From Nocardioides alcanivorans (lineage in GTDB: Bacteria; Actinomycetota; Actinomycetes; Propionibacteriales; Nocardioidaceae): a stretch of 64,000 nucleotides of DNA. Every line of letters begins with the position of its first letter. Position 1 is the first letter of the stretch. Below, in pieces: positions 1 to 62,604 of this stretch. The stretch covers positions 62,001 through 126,000 of the forward strand of contig NZ_JAKGRW010000019.1 in the NCBI RefSeq assembly GCF_021555175.1, written 5' to 3'. A program made the translations under genes and the position numbers. Below the pieces are notes generated by a model. The model made no database searches, was not told where the DNA came from, and worked only from the letters and a program-made list of their open reading frames with translations.

Positions 1-2368
1 CGGCCTTGTTGACCTTCACCGTCGACTGCTCAGCAGTGTGTCGCGGCATCATGTGCAGGTAGTAGGTGGTCTTGACGCCGAGCCGCCACGCCTCGGCGTA
101 CAGGTCAACCATGTTGGCCACCGACCGGTCGGCGAGATAGATGTTGCGACTGATCGCCTGGTCGATCCACTTCTGGGCGCGGGCCGCGACCTCGAGGTAG
201 GCACGGCCGGGCAGCTGGAAGGAGGTCTGGTAGATCTCCACGAGCTCCGCCGGCACGTCGTCGCGCTCAGCGGCCACCTTGGCGAGGTCCCCTTGGTGAC
301 GCAGCAGATCCTCGCGAACGTCATCCCAGGTCCCCGCGGCGCGCAGATCCGTCACGAGGTTGCGGTTGACCTCGAGGAACTTGCCGGAACTGGTGGAGCG
401 GCTGAAGATCTGGCTGAACTGCGGGTCCAGGCCGGGGGTGGTGCCGGCGACCAGACCGATGGACGCGGTGGGTGCGATCGCGAGCAGGGTGGAGTTCCGG
501 ATGCCGCCCTTCACCTTCGCACGAAGGCTGTCCCAGTCCAGACGGGTACGCCGGTCGACGGTCACCTTCTCGCCGCGGTCCTTCTCCAACAGGTCAAGGG
601 TGTCCACCGGCACCAGCCCTCGGCTCCAGCCGGAACCGTCGAAGTTGGGATAGACGCCGCGCTCGCGAGCGAGGTCGGCGGAGGCGTCGATCGCGTGCCA
701 CGACACGAACTCGACCAACCGGTCGATGAGGTCGTAGGCCTCCGGCGACGCGTAGGAGTATCCGAACCGCTCCACGATGTCGGTGAAGCCCATGACGCCC
801 AGCCCGAGCGCGCGGTTGAGTTCGTTGGAGTGCTCCGACTCCGGCACCGAGCTGATGGTGATGTCGATCAGGTTGTCGAGTTGACGCACCGCCGACCGGG
901 TCGACTCCGCCAGCCGGTCCCAGTCGACCTTCGCATGCTGGCGACGGCCGGTCATGTGCCGGGAGAGATTGATCGACGCGAGGTTGCACACGGCGACGTT
1001 CTCCCGGTCCTGCGGCAGCGTGATCTCGGTGCACAGGTTGGAGAGGTGGATGGTTCCGGTGTTGTCGTTGAGCGCCCGAGTGTTGATGGTGTCCTTCCAG
1101 GTCAGCCACGGGTGCGACGTCGACTGGAGCGTGGCGAGGATCGACTTGAACTGCTCGCGGGCACCGATCTTCTTGTGCCGCAGCATCCCGGCCTCCGCAG
1201 CGGCGACGTACTCCGCGTAACGCTCGGAGAAGGCGCGGCCGGTGAGTTCGACCAGGTCGGGCACCTCGGCGGGGTCGAAGAGATACCAGGCATCGTCTCG
1301 ATCGACCCGCAACATGAACTCGTCCGAGATCCACACCGCGGTGTTGGCGGTGCGGGTGCGTCGGTAGGGGTCGCCGGAGTTCTGGCGCAGGTCGAGGAAC
1401 GCCGGGAAGTCGAGGTGCCAGTTCTCCATGTAGAAGCAGAGCGCCCCGAACTTCTTGCCACCGCGACTGACCGCGCGCAGCGTCGAGTCGATCGTGTGCA
1501 TGAACGGGATCGGTCCGGTCGAGGAGGTGTTGTTGGACTTGATCGGCGAACCCTCGGAGCGCAGCTTGGTCACGGAGAGGCCGATCCCGCCGGTGCCCTT
1601 GGTCAGCCACATGACATCGCGCACCGACTTGGCGATGTGCTCGATGTCGTCCTCCATCTGCATCACGAAGCAGTTGGAGAGCTGGGCGTACGACGTACCG
1701 GCGTTGACCAGGGTCGAACCGGCGGCGAGGTACTCCAGCCGCGACATCCGATCGTAGAAGCCGAGTGCGGCAGCGGTCGGGTCCTCCTCGTTGAGGGAAA
1801 GGCCCATCGCCACTCGCATCCAGAAGAACTGTGGCATCTCCATCGGCCGACCGTCGGGGGCCGACAGCATGTAACGCGTGCGCATCGTCTGCACGCCGAT
1901 GTAACGCAGCAGATCGTCGCGGTCGGGGTCGAGCGTCGCCCCGAGCCGCTGCAGGTCGAAGAGTTCGGTGAGCCGGGAGTCGAGCAGCCCGATCTCGACG
2001 CCACGGACGACGTACGCCACGAATGCCTCGGCGTGGAAGGCATAGACCTCGTCGCGGGTGACGCCCTCGCCGAAGATCGACTTGTAGAAGCTCTTCACCA
2101 GGAGCCGCGAGGCGATGGTGTCGTAGGCCGGGTCGTCCTTCACGTTCTGCAGCGCCACCTGCACGACGGCCTCGTCGAGCTGCTCGCTGGTGATGCCGTC
2201 GAAGAGCGTGATCTCCAGCTCGGAGCGGAGCTGGGTCGCGCGGGCGACCTCGTGGTCGAGGCCCGCTGCGGCCTCCTCGATCGATCGGGCGATCTCATAG
2301 CCGTCGTACGGCGCCCTGGTGCCGTCCCGCTTGACGACGGTGATGCTGGTGCTGGCCTCGGTGCTCAT
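1..2368 (-). CDS. nrdA: Ribonucleoside-diphosphate reductase, class Ia large subunit (3' end outside window)
   Basis: Reduces ribonucleoside diphosphates to deoxyribonucleotides together with an NrdB radical subunit, which is not in the window. About 789 codons are visible and the C-terminus runs off the left edge. An ATP-cone lies at roughly residues 8-95 (starting ITVVKRDGTRAPYDGYEIAR). The catalytic barrel follows, with SNCFVMQMEDD holding the redox cysteine, NLCTEI giving the Asn-Cys-Glu active site, and APTASI near the visible end. The start is ATG at 2368 behind a GAGGGGTGG ribosome site. I translated the whole visible part and found no frameshift. A cobalamin riboswitch and NrdR-like boxes upstream imply repression by B12 and by NrdR, as known for Streptomyces nrdABS. 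A B12-dependent class II enzyme (NrdJ) elsewhere is expected; that is inference. Confidence 0.95.
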   Translation of the reverse strand, partial: MSTEASTSITVVKRDGTRAPYDGYEIARSIEEAAAGLDHEVARATQLRSELEITLFDGITSEQLDEAVVQVALQNVKDDPAYDTIASRLLVKSFYKSIFGEGVTRDEVYAFHAEAFVAYVVRGVEIGLLDSRLTELFDLQRLGATLDPDRDDLLRYIGVQTMRTRYMLSAPDGRPMEMPQFFWMRVAMGLSLNEEDPTAAALGFYDRMSRLEYLAAGSTLVNAGTSYAQLSNCFVMQMEDDIEHIAKSVRDVMWLTKGTGGIGLSVTKLRSEGSPIKSNNTSSTGPIPFMHTIDSTLRAVSRGGKKFGALCFYMENWHLDFPAFLDLRQNSGDPYRRTRTANTAVWISDEFMLRVDRDDAWYLFDPAEVPDLVELTGRAFSERYAEYVAAAEAGMLRHKKIGAREQFKSILATLQSTSHPWLTWKDTINTRALNDNTGTIHLSNLCTEITLPQDRENVAVCNLASINLSRHMTGRRQHAKVDWDRLAESTRSAVRQLDNLIDITISSVPESEHSNELNRALGLGVMGFTDIVERFGYSYASPEAYDLIDRLVEFVSWHAIDASADLARERGVYPNFDGSGWSRGLVPVDTLDLLEKDRGEKVTVDRRTRLDWDSLRAKVKGGIRNSTLLAIAPTASIGLVAGTTPGLDPQFSQIFSRSTSSGKFLEVNRNLVTDLRAAGTWDDVREDLLRHQGDLAKVAAERDDVPAELVEIYQTSFQLPGRAYLEVAARAQKWIDQAISRNIYLADRSVANMVDLYAEAWRLGVKTTYYLHMMPRHTAEQSTVKVNKA

Positions 2369-2602
2369 TGGTCCACCCCTCGTGAATCCGCTGCTGTCCG
2401 CTGTCCGCGGACGCCGAGAGGATGCAGGGGTACGACGCAGGGTCGGCAGGGAACTCTGCCGTGCGTTTCGATCCCCTGACCTTCCCTCGAGGTCGCGGAC
2501 CTCCACCGATGGCGGTGGAGCACTGGCAGGTCTTCGGACTCATGGGCGCATCTCACGAACTCGGCTTCGAATTCGTCCTCACCCGGTCACCGAACTTTCG
2601 AT

Positions 2603-2665
2603 CGGTGATCGAGCTTGTCCACTCGGTGATCGAGCTTGTCCACTCGGTGATCGAGCTTGTCGAGA
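2603..2665. repeat. Three tandem 21-bp repeats in the nrdA leader
   Basis: Three head-to-tail units start at 2603, 2624 and 2645. The first two are identical (CGGTGATCGAGCTTGTCCAC plus T); the third changes at its end to TCGAGA. On the minus strand, the coding direction of nrdA, each unit reads GACAAGCTCGATCACCG, the core of the dispersed repeat also found at 4739-4848, 14832-14867 and 31480-31561. They lie in the nrdA 5' leader between the riboswitch and the start codon. No gene is seen between 2369 and 3172 apart from these leader elements. Confidence 0.9.
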
Positions 2666-2694
2666 TCCCTACTGTCCGCCGCTTCCCAGGACCG

Positions 2695-2832
2695 TGTTCG
2701 TTGGTCCCAGTGCTGATGACGGAGGTCGTTCCCATTTACCGCTGCGGGGCAGTCCCGGATTCTCACCGGGTTCCCTCTTGAGAGCTCTCGCTCCCTCGGC
2801 GACCCCTCTGGCTGAGAGGCCGAACCAGCTGC
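2695..2832 (-). promoter_or_regulatory. Cobalamin (B12) riboswitch upstream of nrdA
   Basis: The minus strand carries the conserved cobalamin aptamer core: GGGAACCCGGTGAGAATCC followed by GGGACTGCCCCGCAGCGGTAA and, about 25 nt later, CAGCACTGGGACC as the B12-box end. This matches the family consensus (GGTGAGAATCC and CTGCCCCGCAnCnGTAA). It sits just after the predicted transcription start and about 330 nt before the nrdA ATG. Known precedent: B12 riboswitches turn off class Ia reductase operons in Streptomyces when coenzyme B12 can support the class II enzyme. The expression platform is not obvious; a CACCGA/TCGGTG hairpin lies in the leader near 2585-2610. Confidence 0.93.
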
Positions 2833-2837
2833 GACAA

Positions 2838-2884
2838 CCACTATATACACGAATCACGACGTTGTAACTACCTAGATGTAGTGG
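2838..2884 (-). promoter_or_regulatory. nrdA promoter with two NrdR-like boxes
   Basis: On the minus strand a TTACAA -35 (2862-2867) and TATAGT -10 (2840-2845) are 16 bp apart, just upstream of the riboswitch. Two degenerate copies of the NrdR box (consensus acaCwAtATaTwgtgt) lie at 2838-2853 (left half CACTATATA intact) and 2869-2884 (right half TAGTG intact). Their spacing is 31 bp, about three helical turns, which is the arrangement known for NrdR regulation. The -10 is inside the first box. The box assignment rests on eye-matching to the consensus. Confidence 0.7.
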
Positions 2885-3172
2885 TCGGCGACACGGCGCC
2901 AATAGACCGGACAGCCTGCCGAGGGGACGTAGCAGACGCCAGAACGCTGCCGGTTCGTGGTGTCGGTGCTGTTCGGGGGCTGGGGTCCGGTGCGCGGGTA
3001 CGGGTTGTCGTCCCCGGCCGGGGGCGGCGGTGTCGGGGGTCCTTGCCCACCTGACTTCACCAGCCCAGCCACCCGGCCCCGGGGGTTCGACAAGACCACA
3101 GTGTCGGAGCCTCCTGAAACACTGACCACACCACGCCAACCACCCCGTCGGAACAGGTGAGGAGCAGCGAAG

Positions 3173-4720
3173 ATGACCGGCATCTCAGCAGACACCCCAG
3201 CAGTCGACCTGCTGCAGGCTGCCGCCGAAACACTGCACCGACGCCGGCTCGAAGAAGTCGCCGAACTCGAAGTGCTCGCAGCCTGGGCTGACGTCCACTC
3301 CGCCGACGGCCCCGGATCCGGTCCGTTGATCCACCCCGGCGGGCAAGGAACACCCGGGGTGCAAGACCACGCCATGGGCGAGATCGCCCTGGCCCGCCAC
3401 ACCGGCGTGATGGCCACCATCAACGCCACCGCCGACGTCCTCGACCTACGCCACCGACTCCCGTCGACCTGGGCCAAAACCAAGGCTGGTGTCGTGGACG
3501 TGTGGGTGGTCCGCAAGATCGCCCGCCTCACCCGCCACCTCCCCCACACAGCAGTCGCACTGGTCGACACCGCCATCGCCCCCATCCTGGACCGAGAAGG
3601 CACCGGACGGATCCTCGACATCACCGCCGCCAAGATCATCGAAGCCGACCCCGACCTCCACAACACCCGCGTCGAAACCGAGAAGCAACGCCGCTACGTC
3701 AACCTCGGCCAAACCGACGAACACGGACTACGCACCCTCATCGCCCGACTCGAGGCCGGGGACGCCACCTATGTGGAAGCCACCGTCACCCGAGTCGCCG
3801 ACATCCTCAAAACCCGCCACGACAACCACACCCCCGACGAACTACGAGCCAAAGCACTCGGCTACCTCGCCCGCCCCGCCGAACTCCTCGCACTACTGAC
3901 CGCGAACACCGACCCCCACGGCAACCTCGACCCCCACCTCCCCCACGACCCCTGGAACCCCACCCCACCCACCGGACCCGAACCCACCGGGCCCAAGAAC
4001 GAGGAAGCATCGGCCGGCTCCGAGGACACCGGCCAAGAACACTCGTTGAACAAGGCGATCGCGTTTCCCACCGACCTCCTCGACCGACTCACCGACGTCG
4101 ACTGGGCCGTGCTCAAACCGAAGCACACCCTCTACGCCCACCTCCACGAAACAGCCCTGCACGGCACCCCCGGCGTCGCAAGGGTCGAAGGCCTCGGCGC
4201 GATGACCCTGGCCCAACTCCACGGCCTCCTCGCCGGAGCAACCGTGGTGGTCAAACCAGTGATCGACCTCCACGACAAGATCCGCGCCACCGCCTACGAA
4301 CACCCCGAGTCGTTGAAGGAGCGAGTGCACCTCACCACCGGCGGCGACTACTGGCCCTGGGCCAACTCCACCAACAGACACCTCGACTACGACCACGTCC
4401 ACCCCTACCAACCCGAAGGGGGTGACGGGCAGACCGGCAGCCACAACTCCGGCCCCCTCGGCAGGCGCCACCACCGCTACAAAACCCACGCCGGCTACCG
4501 GGCCACACAGACCGGACCCGGGGAATACGTATGGACCACACCCCACCACCAGGCATTCCTCGTCAACCACACCGGATCACGGCAGATCGACCCCGAGGTC
4601 GCTGAGGCACTCATCAACCGACCCCGATGGCACGAGCAGACACCCCAGCCGACACTGCATCCACCGCCACCCGACAACGCACCACCCGACCCCCTCAACC
4701 CCTTCAACCACGCCGCCTGA
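3173..4720 (+). CDS. DUF222 / 13E12-family protein with C-terminal HNH domain
   Basis: A 515-aa protein of the actinobacterial 13E12 repeat family: an N-terminal helical DUF222 domain (about residues 10-300), a Pro/Gly-rich linker near 255-285, and an HNH nuclease-like domain around 400-440 (DYDHVHPY, then a conserved Asn, then GRRHHRYKTH). Such proteins occur in many divergent copies per actinobacterial genome and their role is not established. The start is ATG at 3173 with GGTGAGGAG about 9 nt upstream. Codon usage is strongly C-ending (CACC, CCCC runs), typical of this family. It is divergent from nrdA and followed by a repeat cluster. Nuclease activity is inferred from the HNH residues only. 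Confidence 0.9.
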   Translation: MTGISADTPAVDLLQAAAETLHRRRLEEVAELEVLAAWADVHSADGPGSGPLIHPGGQGTPGVQDHAMGEIALARHTGVMATINATADVLDLRHRLPSTWAKTKAGVVDVWVVRKIARLTRHLPHTAVALVDTAIAPILDREGTGRILDITAAKIIEADPDLHNTRVETEKQRRYVNLGQTDEHGLRTLIARLEAGDATYVEATVTRVADILKTRHDNHTPDELRAKALGYLARPAELLALLTANTDPHGNLDPHLPHDPWNPTPPTGPEPTGPKNEEASAGSEDTGQEHSLNKAIAFPTDLLDRLTDVDWAVLKPKHTLYAHLHETALHGTPGVARVEGLGAMTLAQLHGLLAGATVVVKPVIDLHDKIRATAYEHPESLKERVHLTTGGDYWPWANSTNRHLDYDHVHPYQPEGGDGQTGSHNSGPLGRRHHRYKTHAGYRATQTGPGEYVWTTPHHQAFLVNHTGSRQIDPEVAEALINRPRWHEQTPQPTLHPPPPDNAPPDPLNPFNHAA

Positions 4721-4738: not shown

Positions 4739-4848
4739 GTCTCGACAAGCTCGACCAACGACAGCGGGCTCGAGCAACAGCGCACGGCGGGGTCTCGACA
4801 GGCTCGACCAACGGCAGGGCGACCTGGTCTCGACAAGCTCGGCCAACG
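4739..4848. repeat. Cluster of three GTCTCGACARGCTCG intergenic repeats
   Basis: Direct copies lie at 4739-4760 (GTCTCGACAAGCTCGACCAA), 4792-4813 (GTCTCGACAGGCTCGACCAA) and 4827-4848 (GTCTCGACAAGCTCGGCCAA), all on the same strand and separated by 31 and 13 bp of GC-rich sequence. They fill the 190-bp gap between the DUF222 gene and the LigD-polymerase remnant. The same element is found as inverted pairs at 14832-14867 and 31480-31561. No coding capacity is seen. Confidence 0.9.
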
Positions 4849-14802: not shown

Positions 14803-14831
14803 GCCACCCGGTCATCAACCACACTCGGTGG

Positions 14832-31479: not shown

Positions 31480-31561
31480 TCTCGACAGGCTCGACCACCG
31501 GAGCGGTAGCGACCACCGGAGCGGTGACGACCACCGGAGCCGGTGATCGAGCCTGTCGAGA
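31480..31561. repeat. Inverted repeat element in the rpoB-rpoC gap
   Basis: Arms at 31480-31501 and 31540-31561 are 22 bp, complementary at 21 positions (core TCTCGACAGGCTCGA and its inverse), and enclose two near-copies of AGCGGTnnCGACCACCGG. It is an inverted pair of the same element as at 14832-14867. It begins three bases after the rpoB stop and would form a long hairpin in the rpoB-rpoC messenger. The rpoC ribosome site lies outside it. Confidence 0.85.
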
Positions 31562-54080: not shown

Positions 54081-54146
54081 GGGGTCGTCCCTAACAGATT
54101 TGTAGTTTTCGGGCCAGAAATCTACAAATCTGTTAGGGACGATCCC
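54081..54146. repeat. Long AT-richer inverted repeat between convergent add and murB
   Basis: Perfect 21-bp arms at 54085-54105 (begins TCGTCCCTAACAGATTTGTA) and 54122-54142, extended outward by GGGG/TCCC to about 25 bp and inward by TTTTC/GAAAT, around a GGGCCA apical loop. The base composition is clearly lower in GC than the flanks. Position between convergent genes suits a bidirectional terminator, but the arm length is more typical of a small non-autonomous element. Confidence 0.8.
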
Positions 54147-61488: not shown

Positions 61489-62604
61489 TCAGCGCGCGCG
61501 ACTCTGCTCCGAGCCCGTCGGGAAGGGGTTGAAGCGACATCCCTGCAGACCCTTGGACTGCTGCTGCATCACTGGCGCGGCTGCACCGCTGCGGGGGCAG
61601 CTGGCGTGGCCGAAGCCGAGCCAGTGACCGGTCTCGTGGTTGACCACCATGTGCCGGTAGCCGCGCAGCGATCCGCCGGCGGCGTTCCAGGCCGGCGAAG
61701 CGTGCTGCCAACGCGTCTGGTTGATCACGACGTAACGGCCCACGCGGCAGCTCCACTGGACGCTGCACACCGGCGAGAAACGCGGCAGCCAGGAGGCCTC
61801 CGCGAGCACGAGGGTGAAGTTGCCGCCACTCCCGACCCGACGGAACTTGACGCCACCACCGCGCCAGCCGCGGGCATCGTCATAGGTCTGCTGGGCCAGT
61901 TTCTTGAACTTCGGCAGCGAGGCGGAGACCTTGCCCCGGGTCTCGACGGAGTAGGTGACGACGCGGCGTACGCCGACCTTGTGCTTGCCGGTTACCTTCT
62001 TGGACGTGACCTGACGCTTCTTCCAGCCGTCGCGCCCGGCCGTCCAGCGCACCTGGATCCGGTGACCGACATCGGAGGCGGCGACCTTGAACTTCTTGCC
62101 CTTCGCACCCTTGACGGGCTTCCCGTCGCGCAGCCACTGGCGCCTCAGCTTCTGCGGCGCCTTGTCGAACTTCGGCTTCGTGGAGGTGAGCGTCCTGCCG
62201 ATGCGCGCCGTGCCCTTGATCGTGGGCTTGCGCTTCACCGCGAAGACGGCCTTGCGGATGGTGAGCGGTGCGGTGAGGACCACGGTGGTGCCGTCGGCGT
62301 TGGTCGCCGAGACACGCGCCGAGAGCTGCCGGCCGAGGTCGGACCTGGTGGCGGTGCGGGAGCGTGCGGTCGCGCCGCTGATCGGGGATCCGTCACGCAG
62401 CCACTGCACGCTCAGGCTGTCGGGGACCGGCGTCCAGGCGCCCGTGTCGACGGTGAGCACCCCACGCACGACGGCCTTGCCGCTGATGCTCGGCGCGGTG
62501 GTCGCAACCGGAGCCGCGGCCGAAGCGGGCGCCGCACCGAGAGTGAGGAGCGCCGCCACGAGGCCAAGGGTGGACAGCGCTGAGAAGAATCGCACCTGAT
62601 CCAT
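61489..62604 (-). CDS. Secreted DUF3152 zincin-like protein with N-terminal Ig-like repeats
   Basis: 371 aa from ATG 62604 (an ATG at 62640 adds 12 residues). The signal peptide ends LLTLGAAPASA. Two beta-sandwich repeats of the kind SISGKAVVRGVLTVDTGAW ... VQWLRDGSPISGAT, the second TIKGTARIGRTLTSTKPKFD ... RQWLRDGKPVKGAK. The C-terminal DUF3152 domain has four Cys and the metalloprotease-like HMVVNHETGHWLGFGHASC (HExGHxxGxxH with an inserted residue pattern like metzincins). Probably an exported peptidase; activity not shown. Confidence 0.82.
   Translation of the reverse strand: MDQVRFFSALSTLGLVAALLTLGAAPASAAAPVATTAPSISGKAVVRGVLTVDTGAWTPVPDSLSVQWLRDGSPISGATARSRTATRSDLGRQLSARVSATNADGTTVVLTAPLTIRKAVFAVKRKPTIKGTARIGRTLTSTKPKFDKAPQKLRRQWLRDGKPVKGAKGKKFKVAASDVGHRIQVRWTAGRDGWKKRQVTSKKVTGKHKVGVRRVVTYSVETRGKVSASLPKFKKLAQQTYDDARGWRGGGVKFRRVGSGGNFTLVLAEASWLPRFSPVCSVQWSCRVGRYVVINQTRWQHASPAWNAAGGSLRGYRHMVVNHETGHWLGFGHASCPRSGAAAPVMQQQSKGLQGCRFNPFPTGSEQSRAR

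Follow-up and report, generated by a model that had tools for sequence, protein, structure and literature searches.

A dispersed repeat array within the cobalamin riboswitch aptamer upstream of nrdA in Nocardioides alcanivorans

The nrdA gene described here, which encodes the alpha subunit of a class I ribonucleotide reductase, is preceded by a cobalamin riboswitch aptamer that carries a 107-nt insertion with three tandem copies of a dispersed repeat, and to judge from its conserved columns the aptamer sequence is intact despite this insert. The best explanation, in which we have good confidence, is that nrdA is controlled by both NrdR and B12 and that the riboswitch works and accommodates the small repeat as a peripheral helix. 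The window, i.e. the whole stretch of 64,000 nucleotides that was analysed, comprises positions 62001–126000 of contig C19 from an assembly with 91.9% completeness and 6.5% contamination. Nocardioides daejeonensis is the nearest named relative in the genome collection, and its NrdA is 95% identical over 768 columns. Gene, aptamer, array and promoter all lie on the minus strand, and the features are listed here in the direction of nrdA transcription:

3173–4720, plus strand: DUF222 gene, divergent from nrdA (PF02720, 33.1 bits), C-terminal part HNH-like (by eye)
2869–2884, minus strand: NrdR-type box 1, directly upstream of the −35 element GTTACA (2863–2868)
2838–2853, minus strand: NrdR-type box 2, overlapping the −10 element TATAGT (2840–2845)
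2508–2845, minus strand: cobalamin riboswitch aptamer, 338 nt (RF00174, 72.5 bits, E 6.1e-16, full model 1–189)
2780–2795, minus strand: extra hairpin GGGAGC-GAGA-GCTCTC between P2 and P3, a gap in the other 34 aligned aptamers
2742–2752, minus strand: P5/L5 hairpin with a CCC loop, columns invariant in 35 aptamers
2731–2735, minus strand: 5' strand (AUGGG) of the arm helix closing the peripheral domain
2559–2665, minus strand: insertion of 107 nt (alignment with N. daejeonensis), placed in a facultative hairpin loop within the peripheral domain
2641–2661, 2620–2640 and 2599–2619, minus strand: three tandem copies of the 21-bp repeat (TRF and motif search)
2542–2546, minus strand: 3' strand (CCCAU) of the arm helix closing the peripheral domain, covarying
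2525–2540, minus strand: B12 box AGTCCGAAGACCTGCC
2501–2520, minus strand: hairpin H1 (CTCCACC..GGTGGAG), directly 3' of the aptamer core, pairs covarying in 37 leaders
2478–2494, minus strand: platform hairpin, probable P13/L13, with GGG in the loop of all 37 distinct leaders
2366–2368, minus strand: ATG start codon of nrdA
1–2368, minus strand: nrdA, truncated by the window edge (Pfam ATP-cone, Ribonuc_red_lgN and Ribonuc_red_lgC)
Locus L026, 552–1532, beyond the window: nrdB-like ORF after nrdA, named by eye

The nrdA product matched NF005101 (PRK06539) with 1440.6 bits against a cut-off of 988, and its subfamily is patchy in the family, with matches in 26 of 294 genomes at E 1e-60. Near the start codon a short hairpin may form (2372–2386, by eye), with an SD-like GAGGGG in its loop. 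An earlier sequence-only reading of this DNA, which gave no strand, had recognised a clear cobalamin aptamer in the leader and had named the covariance model as a check; RF00174 bears the aptamer out, with a score well above the gathering threshold of 31.5 bits. The match overlaps the promoter with its first bases and the 5' side of H1 with its end. The genome contains 13 RF00174 matches, 11 of them above the cut-off, and the 13-base core of the repeat is absent, in either orientation, from the 12 matches other than that of nrdA.

The 34 aligned relatives of the aptamer measure 199–240 nt, and N. daejeonensis provides an empty site relative to which the window has gained the 107 nt. In the RF00174 alignment this insertion falls between model positions 151 and 152, and the array is therefore situated inside the aptamer. 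The same early reading was thus right that the leader holds three tandem copies, but it had placed them between the aptamer and the ATG and supposed that they could affect the expression platform. The repeats can be ruled out as part of the platform, since the array lies in a peripheral hairpin of the aptamer and none of the 139 nt between the end of the RF00174 match and the ATG (2369–2507) belongs to a repeat copy. The downstream leader is as in the sister species: over 82 nt, between the B12 box and 2459, it is identical to that of N. daejeonensis except that the sister has a single extra loop base, in H1.

TRF reported 2.9 units of 21 bp with 100% matches (2602–2661). The third copy (2599–2619) differs by two bases at its outer end. 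A search of the window with the 21-mer, allowing up to three mismatches, returned four matches where 0.01 are expected, three of which form the array while one lies at 14822. The insert is made up of three 21-bp units plus ~40 nt without other copies. When a DNA search was made with the insert (111 bases searched), only its first 67 bases matched anywhere outside the window array, so that no other copy was found of the last 44. The distance between the anchors GGGAAG and AGACC was surveyed in 106 leaders (the window and sets of 80 and 25, with several genomes in both). Both anchors were present in 54 leaders; the 52 without an anchor, all from the set of 80, were left out. The distance was 154 nt in the window and 36–82 nt in the other 53 leaders, duplicates included.

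The insertion occupies a slot that is variable among relatives. A five-pair arm (columns 117–121/328–332), which covaries, closes the peripheral domain; its outer pair is G-C in 21, A-U in 9 and G-U in 4 sequences. Inside the arm lies the facultative hairpin (columns 209–211/321–323), of variable length among relatives, which in N. daejeonensis reads AUC-GCGA-GAU. In the window the insertion splits the GCGA loop, and the insert is predicted to be closed by a stem AUCUC/GAGAU (2662–2666 with 2550–2554). Where the aligned relatives have little sequence or a short hairpin in this slot, the window has the repeat array. By its position, the slot resembles the P8-P10-P11 region, which has been described as an optional peripheral domain of AdoCbl riboswitches (PMC2258182) and, in a structural account, as part of a four-way junction of P7, P8, P10 and P11 (PMC11260477). 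The repeat has the many dispersed copies, and the filled and empty sites in close relatives, of a small interspersed or MITE-like element. No clear target-site duplication was seen by eye in the one comparison of a filled and an empty site (window and N. daejeonensis).

Several lines of evidence indicate that the aptamer has kept its conserved parts. The alignment has 97 columns with at least 97% conservation among the 34 relatives, and the window keeps every one of them. RNAalifold on 35 aptamers, with the window included in the consensus, gave 54 pairs, 25 of them with double-sided changes. Seven of the 54 pairs differ between the window and N. daejeonensis, and the window forms a standard pair in all seven, in two of them through a double-sided change. 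The outer pair of the arm (columns 117/332), A-U in the window, is G-C in N. daejeonensis and in the seven rows that follow it; this double-sided change lies on the window branch, in the very arm that carries the insert. We regard the compensated pairs as the best sign of selection on the aptamer along this branch, and they may predate or postdate the insertion.

An aptamer damaged by the insertion and in early decay, with nrdA mainly under NrdR control, would be in line with the covariance score, which at 72.5 bits is below that of N. daejeonensis (98.4) and is the lowest among the scored nrdA aptamers of its own subfamily, the next being L038 with 73.2 bits. (The L011 aptamer, from the other nrdA subfamily, scored 62.1 bits.) It would also fit the occurrence of two separate lineage-specific insertions, at 2559–2665 and at 2780–2795, the latter being a 16-nt hairpin with only one match within the window. 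Such decay is nevertheless unlikely, as the conserved columns are complete, pairs have changed on both sides on the window branch, and the stretch from the B12 box to 2459 has been preserved almost unchanged from the sister. Folding energies are a noisy guide here. The penalty for imposing the consensus core is 1.9 kcal/mol in the window, compared with 0.8 in L037, and N. daejeonensis itself needs 8.6 (range 0.8–18.8 over 35 sequences); this lends weak support because several helices receive a low probability in most sequences. In the window the predicted pair probabilities of several core helices are low (P3 0.03, P5 0.10, P6 0.11, arm 0.14), likewise in most of the other 34. The insertion leaves core and platform intact and therefore the riboswitch most likely still functions, with the array as a tolerated passenger.

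The repeat was also taken by the sequence-only reading to be dispersed, and genome-wide counts agree. In this genome its core TCGACAAGCTCGA has 227 copies, compared with three for the reversed pattern; in N. daejeonensis it has 68, compared with none. The longer 19-mer TCGACARGCTCGANCACCG was present in four of 17 genomes with 68 (this genome), 83, 21 and 13 copies, and its reversed form in none of the 17. Among the matches listed from the open-licence literature, no paper title concerned the sequence of this repeat. Copies also lie in coding sequence: the C-terminal linker of the window NrdA contains one that reads VEPVETS, and in two other Nocardioides loci (L017 at 1477, L019 at 1453) a copy at the N-terminus of the second NrdA subfamily reads VSTSSTT. 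Around nrdA the repeat was noted at L026 1662, 1696 and 1856 (C19:61662–61874), in the NrdA C-terminal linker just mentioned and in the interval between nrdA and the nrdB-like ORF, where two 13-base core copies are found. At the N. daejeonensis locus (L058) the repeat lies at 1290 and 6471, in a CobN-like ORF and at the NrdA end. Elsewhere in the window, two copies face each other around an 18-bp tandem array (31484–31557, array 31492–31540). A long near-perfect inverted repeat with arms of ~21 bp is present at 54085–54142, shortly 3' of an adenosine-deaminase-like ORF (by eye), and may be a terminator or an operator.

How the repeat spreads may depend on DUF222/HNH-like genes. Repeat copies lie on either side of the window DUF222 gene, at 2599–2661 on the minus strand and at 4744–4842 on the plus strand (the latter partly with one mismatch), and this gene is similar to an ORF at locus L210. 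At seven array loci (L205–L210 and L212), which were picked for a layout of minus copy, gene and plus copy, a related DUF222/HNH-like frame or its remnants were found in all seven. Pfam gave no match for four proteins from array loci and NCBIfam none for two; when the genome was searched for DUF222 with Pfam, seven matches were obtained, all of them away from the seven array loci. The idea that the leader repeats are the end of a single DUF222 element finds no support, as the array is separated from the DUF222 gene by the 5' half of the aptamer and the nrdA promoter. The similarity between the window and N. daejeonensis stops at the upstream NrdR box (~2884 in the window, 3605 in L058), and upstream of nrdA lie cobN- and cobF-like ORFs (by eye) in N. 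daejeonensis and the DUF222 gene in the window. In two Aeromicrobium genomes a second cobalamin riboswitch is found just upstream of that of nrdA and facing away from it (L052 872–1020 and L053 794–944, both minus strand).

The same repeat family occupies the nrdA aptamer of Marmoricola endophyticus (L037, which is the same genome as L059), a carrier of the 19-mer, within the same hairpin and in the same orientation, as one unit and not as an array. The predicted hairpin folding had z −3.22 for the Marmoricola repeat and −2.28 for the window insert. The 19-mer was in no other nrdA aptamer among the loci fetched. When 341 family genomes were searched for the pattern of repeat, 30–60 nt and B12 box, one match was obtained (G099, M. 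endophyticus); this count is a lower bound, because the nearest copy in the window has a gap of 63 nt, just outside the range. In the NrdA tree the window groups with N. daejeonensis (support 100/99), which is without the insert, and the well-supported branches, over the four labelled rows, force two changes. Two gains are therefore the simplest reading, and the Marmoricola repeat is probably an independent insertion.

It is less easily imagined that both repeats go back to a single older insertion, with later loss in the other lineages. The shared site and orientation and a similar left junction (CAGTAGG, followed by RTCTCGACARGCTCGA) could be explained in this way, but several losses would be required, as N. 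daejeonensis and the other members of the ten-row clade have no insert, and the starred branches force two changes among the four labelled rows; common descent of the two repeats thus seems improbable. A second, distant class I NrdA group also exists in Nocardioides (L010–L021, 32–35% identical to the window NrdA in the N-terminal part searched; two loci were verified against NCBIfam). All 12 of its loci have an RF00174 riboswitch, with a slot of 46–70 nt in the 11 where it was measurable. The 19-mer is present in none, and several of these slots start with GGGGTCGA, which is partly like the repeat.

The number of units could in principle matter for regulation. If slippage varied the number of 21-bp units, the folding of the peripheral domain would change and the array would act as a regulatory tuner that sets the B12 response of nrdAB; the tandem units are near-perfect and the same repeat family sits in the same slot of a second genus. 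Against this, the other repeat-bearing aptamer, that of M. endophyticus, has a single unit and no array, and the slot is free of the repeat in L033 and L036, two of the four genomes that have both the repeat and this nrdA. We consider tuning very unlikely and retain the tolerated peripheral helix as our preferred reading.

The promoter supports a second layer of control. The sequence-only reading had described a promoter overlapped by two NrdR boxes 31 bp apart, and we find the same arrangement: the two NrdR-type boxes are 31 bp apart, centre to centre, around a sigma-70-like site GTTACA-17-TATAGT (2868–2840), of which there is one in 2300–3200 against a shuffle mean of 0.1. A spacing of ~31 bp is usual for NrdR boxes. 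A two-box matrix was built from 31 distinct relatives, with the window and N. daejeonensis left out, and the box pair is conserved in relatives. The matrix scored 47.8 bits at 2838–2884, compared with 9.2 for its own reverse complement and 7.7 for the best unrelated place in the window, although part of the 47.8 bits reflects the promoter because an ATA.GTG-like motif served to align the relatives. Independently of this, in the nrdR promoter of this genome ACATCTAG occurs twice, 31 bp apart, and the matrix scored 19.2–19.4 bits there, the next best being 4.5.

Both nrdJ and nrdR, for which a search of the genome had been suggested, were found on contig C6: nrdJ matched TIGR02504 with 620.3 bits, and nrdR (C6:14618–15049) matched TIGR00244 with 152.7 bits against a cut-off of 124.65. 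The two matches share a strand, that of nrdR beginning 445 bases upstream of that of nrdJ. With the covariance hit and a class II reductase both present, neither of the outcomes that the sequence-only reading had named as refuting it has occurred. Double control of nrdA by NrdR and B12, as first proposed from the letters of the leader, is well supported on sequence grounds, by the conserved box pair and its recurrence in the nrdR promoter, by the aptamer, and by the presence of nrdJ and nrdR.

We propose the following mechanism. NrdR could cover the nrdA promoter by binding the two boxes around the −35 and −10 elements. From the position of these predicted elements, transcription would begin with the first base of the aptamer helix P1 or close to it, near 2833 as P1 is drawn. 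When adenosylcobalamin is plentiful, it would bind the aptamer, which would fold and form a kissing interaction between its CCC loop L5 and the GGG loop of the P13-like hairpin. The two loops are complementary, the match being one of complementarity only, and a kissing interaction between L5 and L13 has been described in AdoCbl riboswitches (PMC11260477, PMC2258182), which makes the GGG-loop hairpin a good candidate for L13. The folded aptamer would presumably lower nrdAB expression, and the B12-dependent NrdJ would take over. No intrinsic terminator with a T-run was found in 2300–3200. For Propionibacterium acnes it has been reported that much nrdAB transcription appears to stop before the first gene (PMC3848588). 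In the lineage of the window, the dispersed repeat would have entered the loop of the facultative hairpin in the optional peripheral domain and is predicted to fold as a domain of its own on the extended AUCUC/GAGAU stem, leaving core and platform intact, so that its presence would be largely neutral.

Parts of this picture are known from other systems. NrdR boxes together with a B12 riboswitch have been described for nrdAB of P. acnes (PMC3848588), and double control is therefore ordinary; a cobalamin riboswitch has also been described upstream of nrdABS in Streptomyces (PMC3293853). As in these actinobacterial nrdAB systems, the aptamer in the window lies upstream of class I nrdA, and nrdR and nrdJ are together elsewhere in the genome. 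The P. acnes nrdAB promoter is described as overlapped by a single nrd-box (PMC3848588), whereas the window has two boxes, and unlike Streptomyces and P. acnes the window aptamer carries the 107-nt insertion with the dispersed repeat.

Repeats inside functional RNAs are likewise known. Rickettsia palindromic elements have been reported in the genes for tmRNA and for M1 RNA, the RNA of RNase P, and also as in-frame insertions in proteins (PMC2229807); they resemble the present case as small dispersed repeats inside a structured functional RNA, but belong to another repeat family, and the host RNA is here a riboswitch. A pneumococcal BOX element lies between the two T-box riboswitches of the trp operon, which are reported to still appear functional (PMC3049150). 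That repeat, too, is co-transcribed with a riboswitch, but it lies between two T-boxes, whereas the present one is inside a single aptamer. Like the P8-P10-P11 domain described for AdoCbl riboswitches (PMC2258182, PMC11260477), the insert belongs to a variable peripheral region. In a limited search of the open-licence literature, the matches listed contained no case of a dispersed repeat inside a riboswitch aptamer.

A bolder generalisation, which we hold to be unlikely, is that a mobile repeat repeatedly supplies a riboswitch helix: the slot in the nrdA aptamer would have been filled at least twice in one orientation, and the B12 threshold for ribonucleotide reductase could depend on how many units the array contains. 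What the window offers is a natural insertion experiment, in which a foreign array of 107 nt sits in a sensor that has kept its conserved sequence and a sister with an empty site is available for comparison. It points to a cobalamin-aptamer loop that tolerates large additions, and to a small dispersed repeat that has entered regulatory RNA, beyond intergenic DNA or protein linkers.
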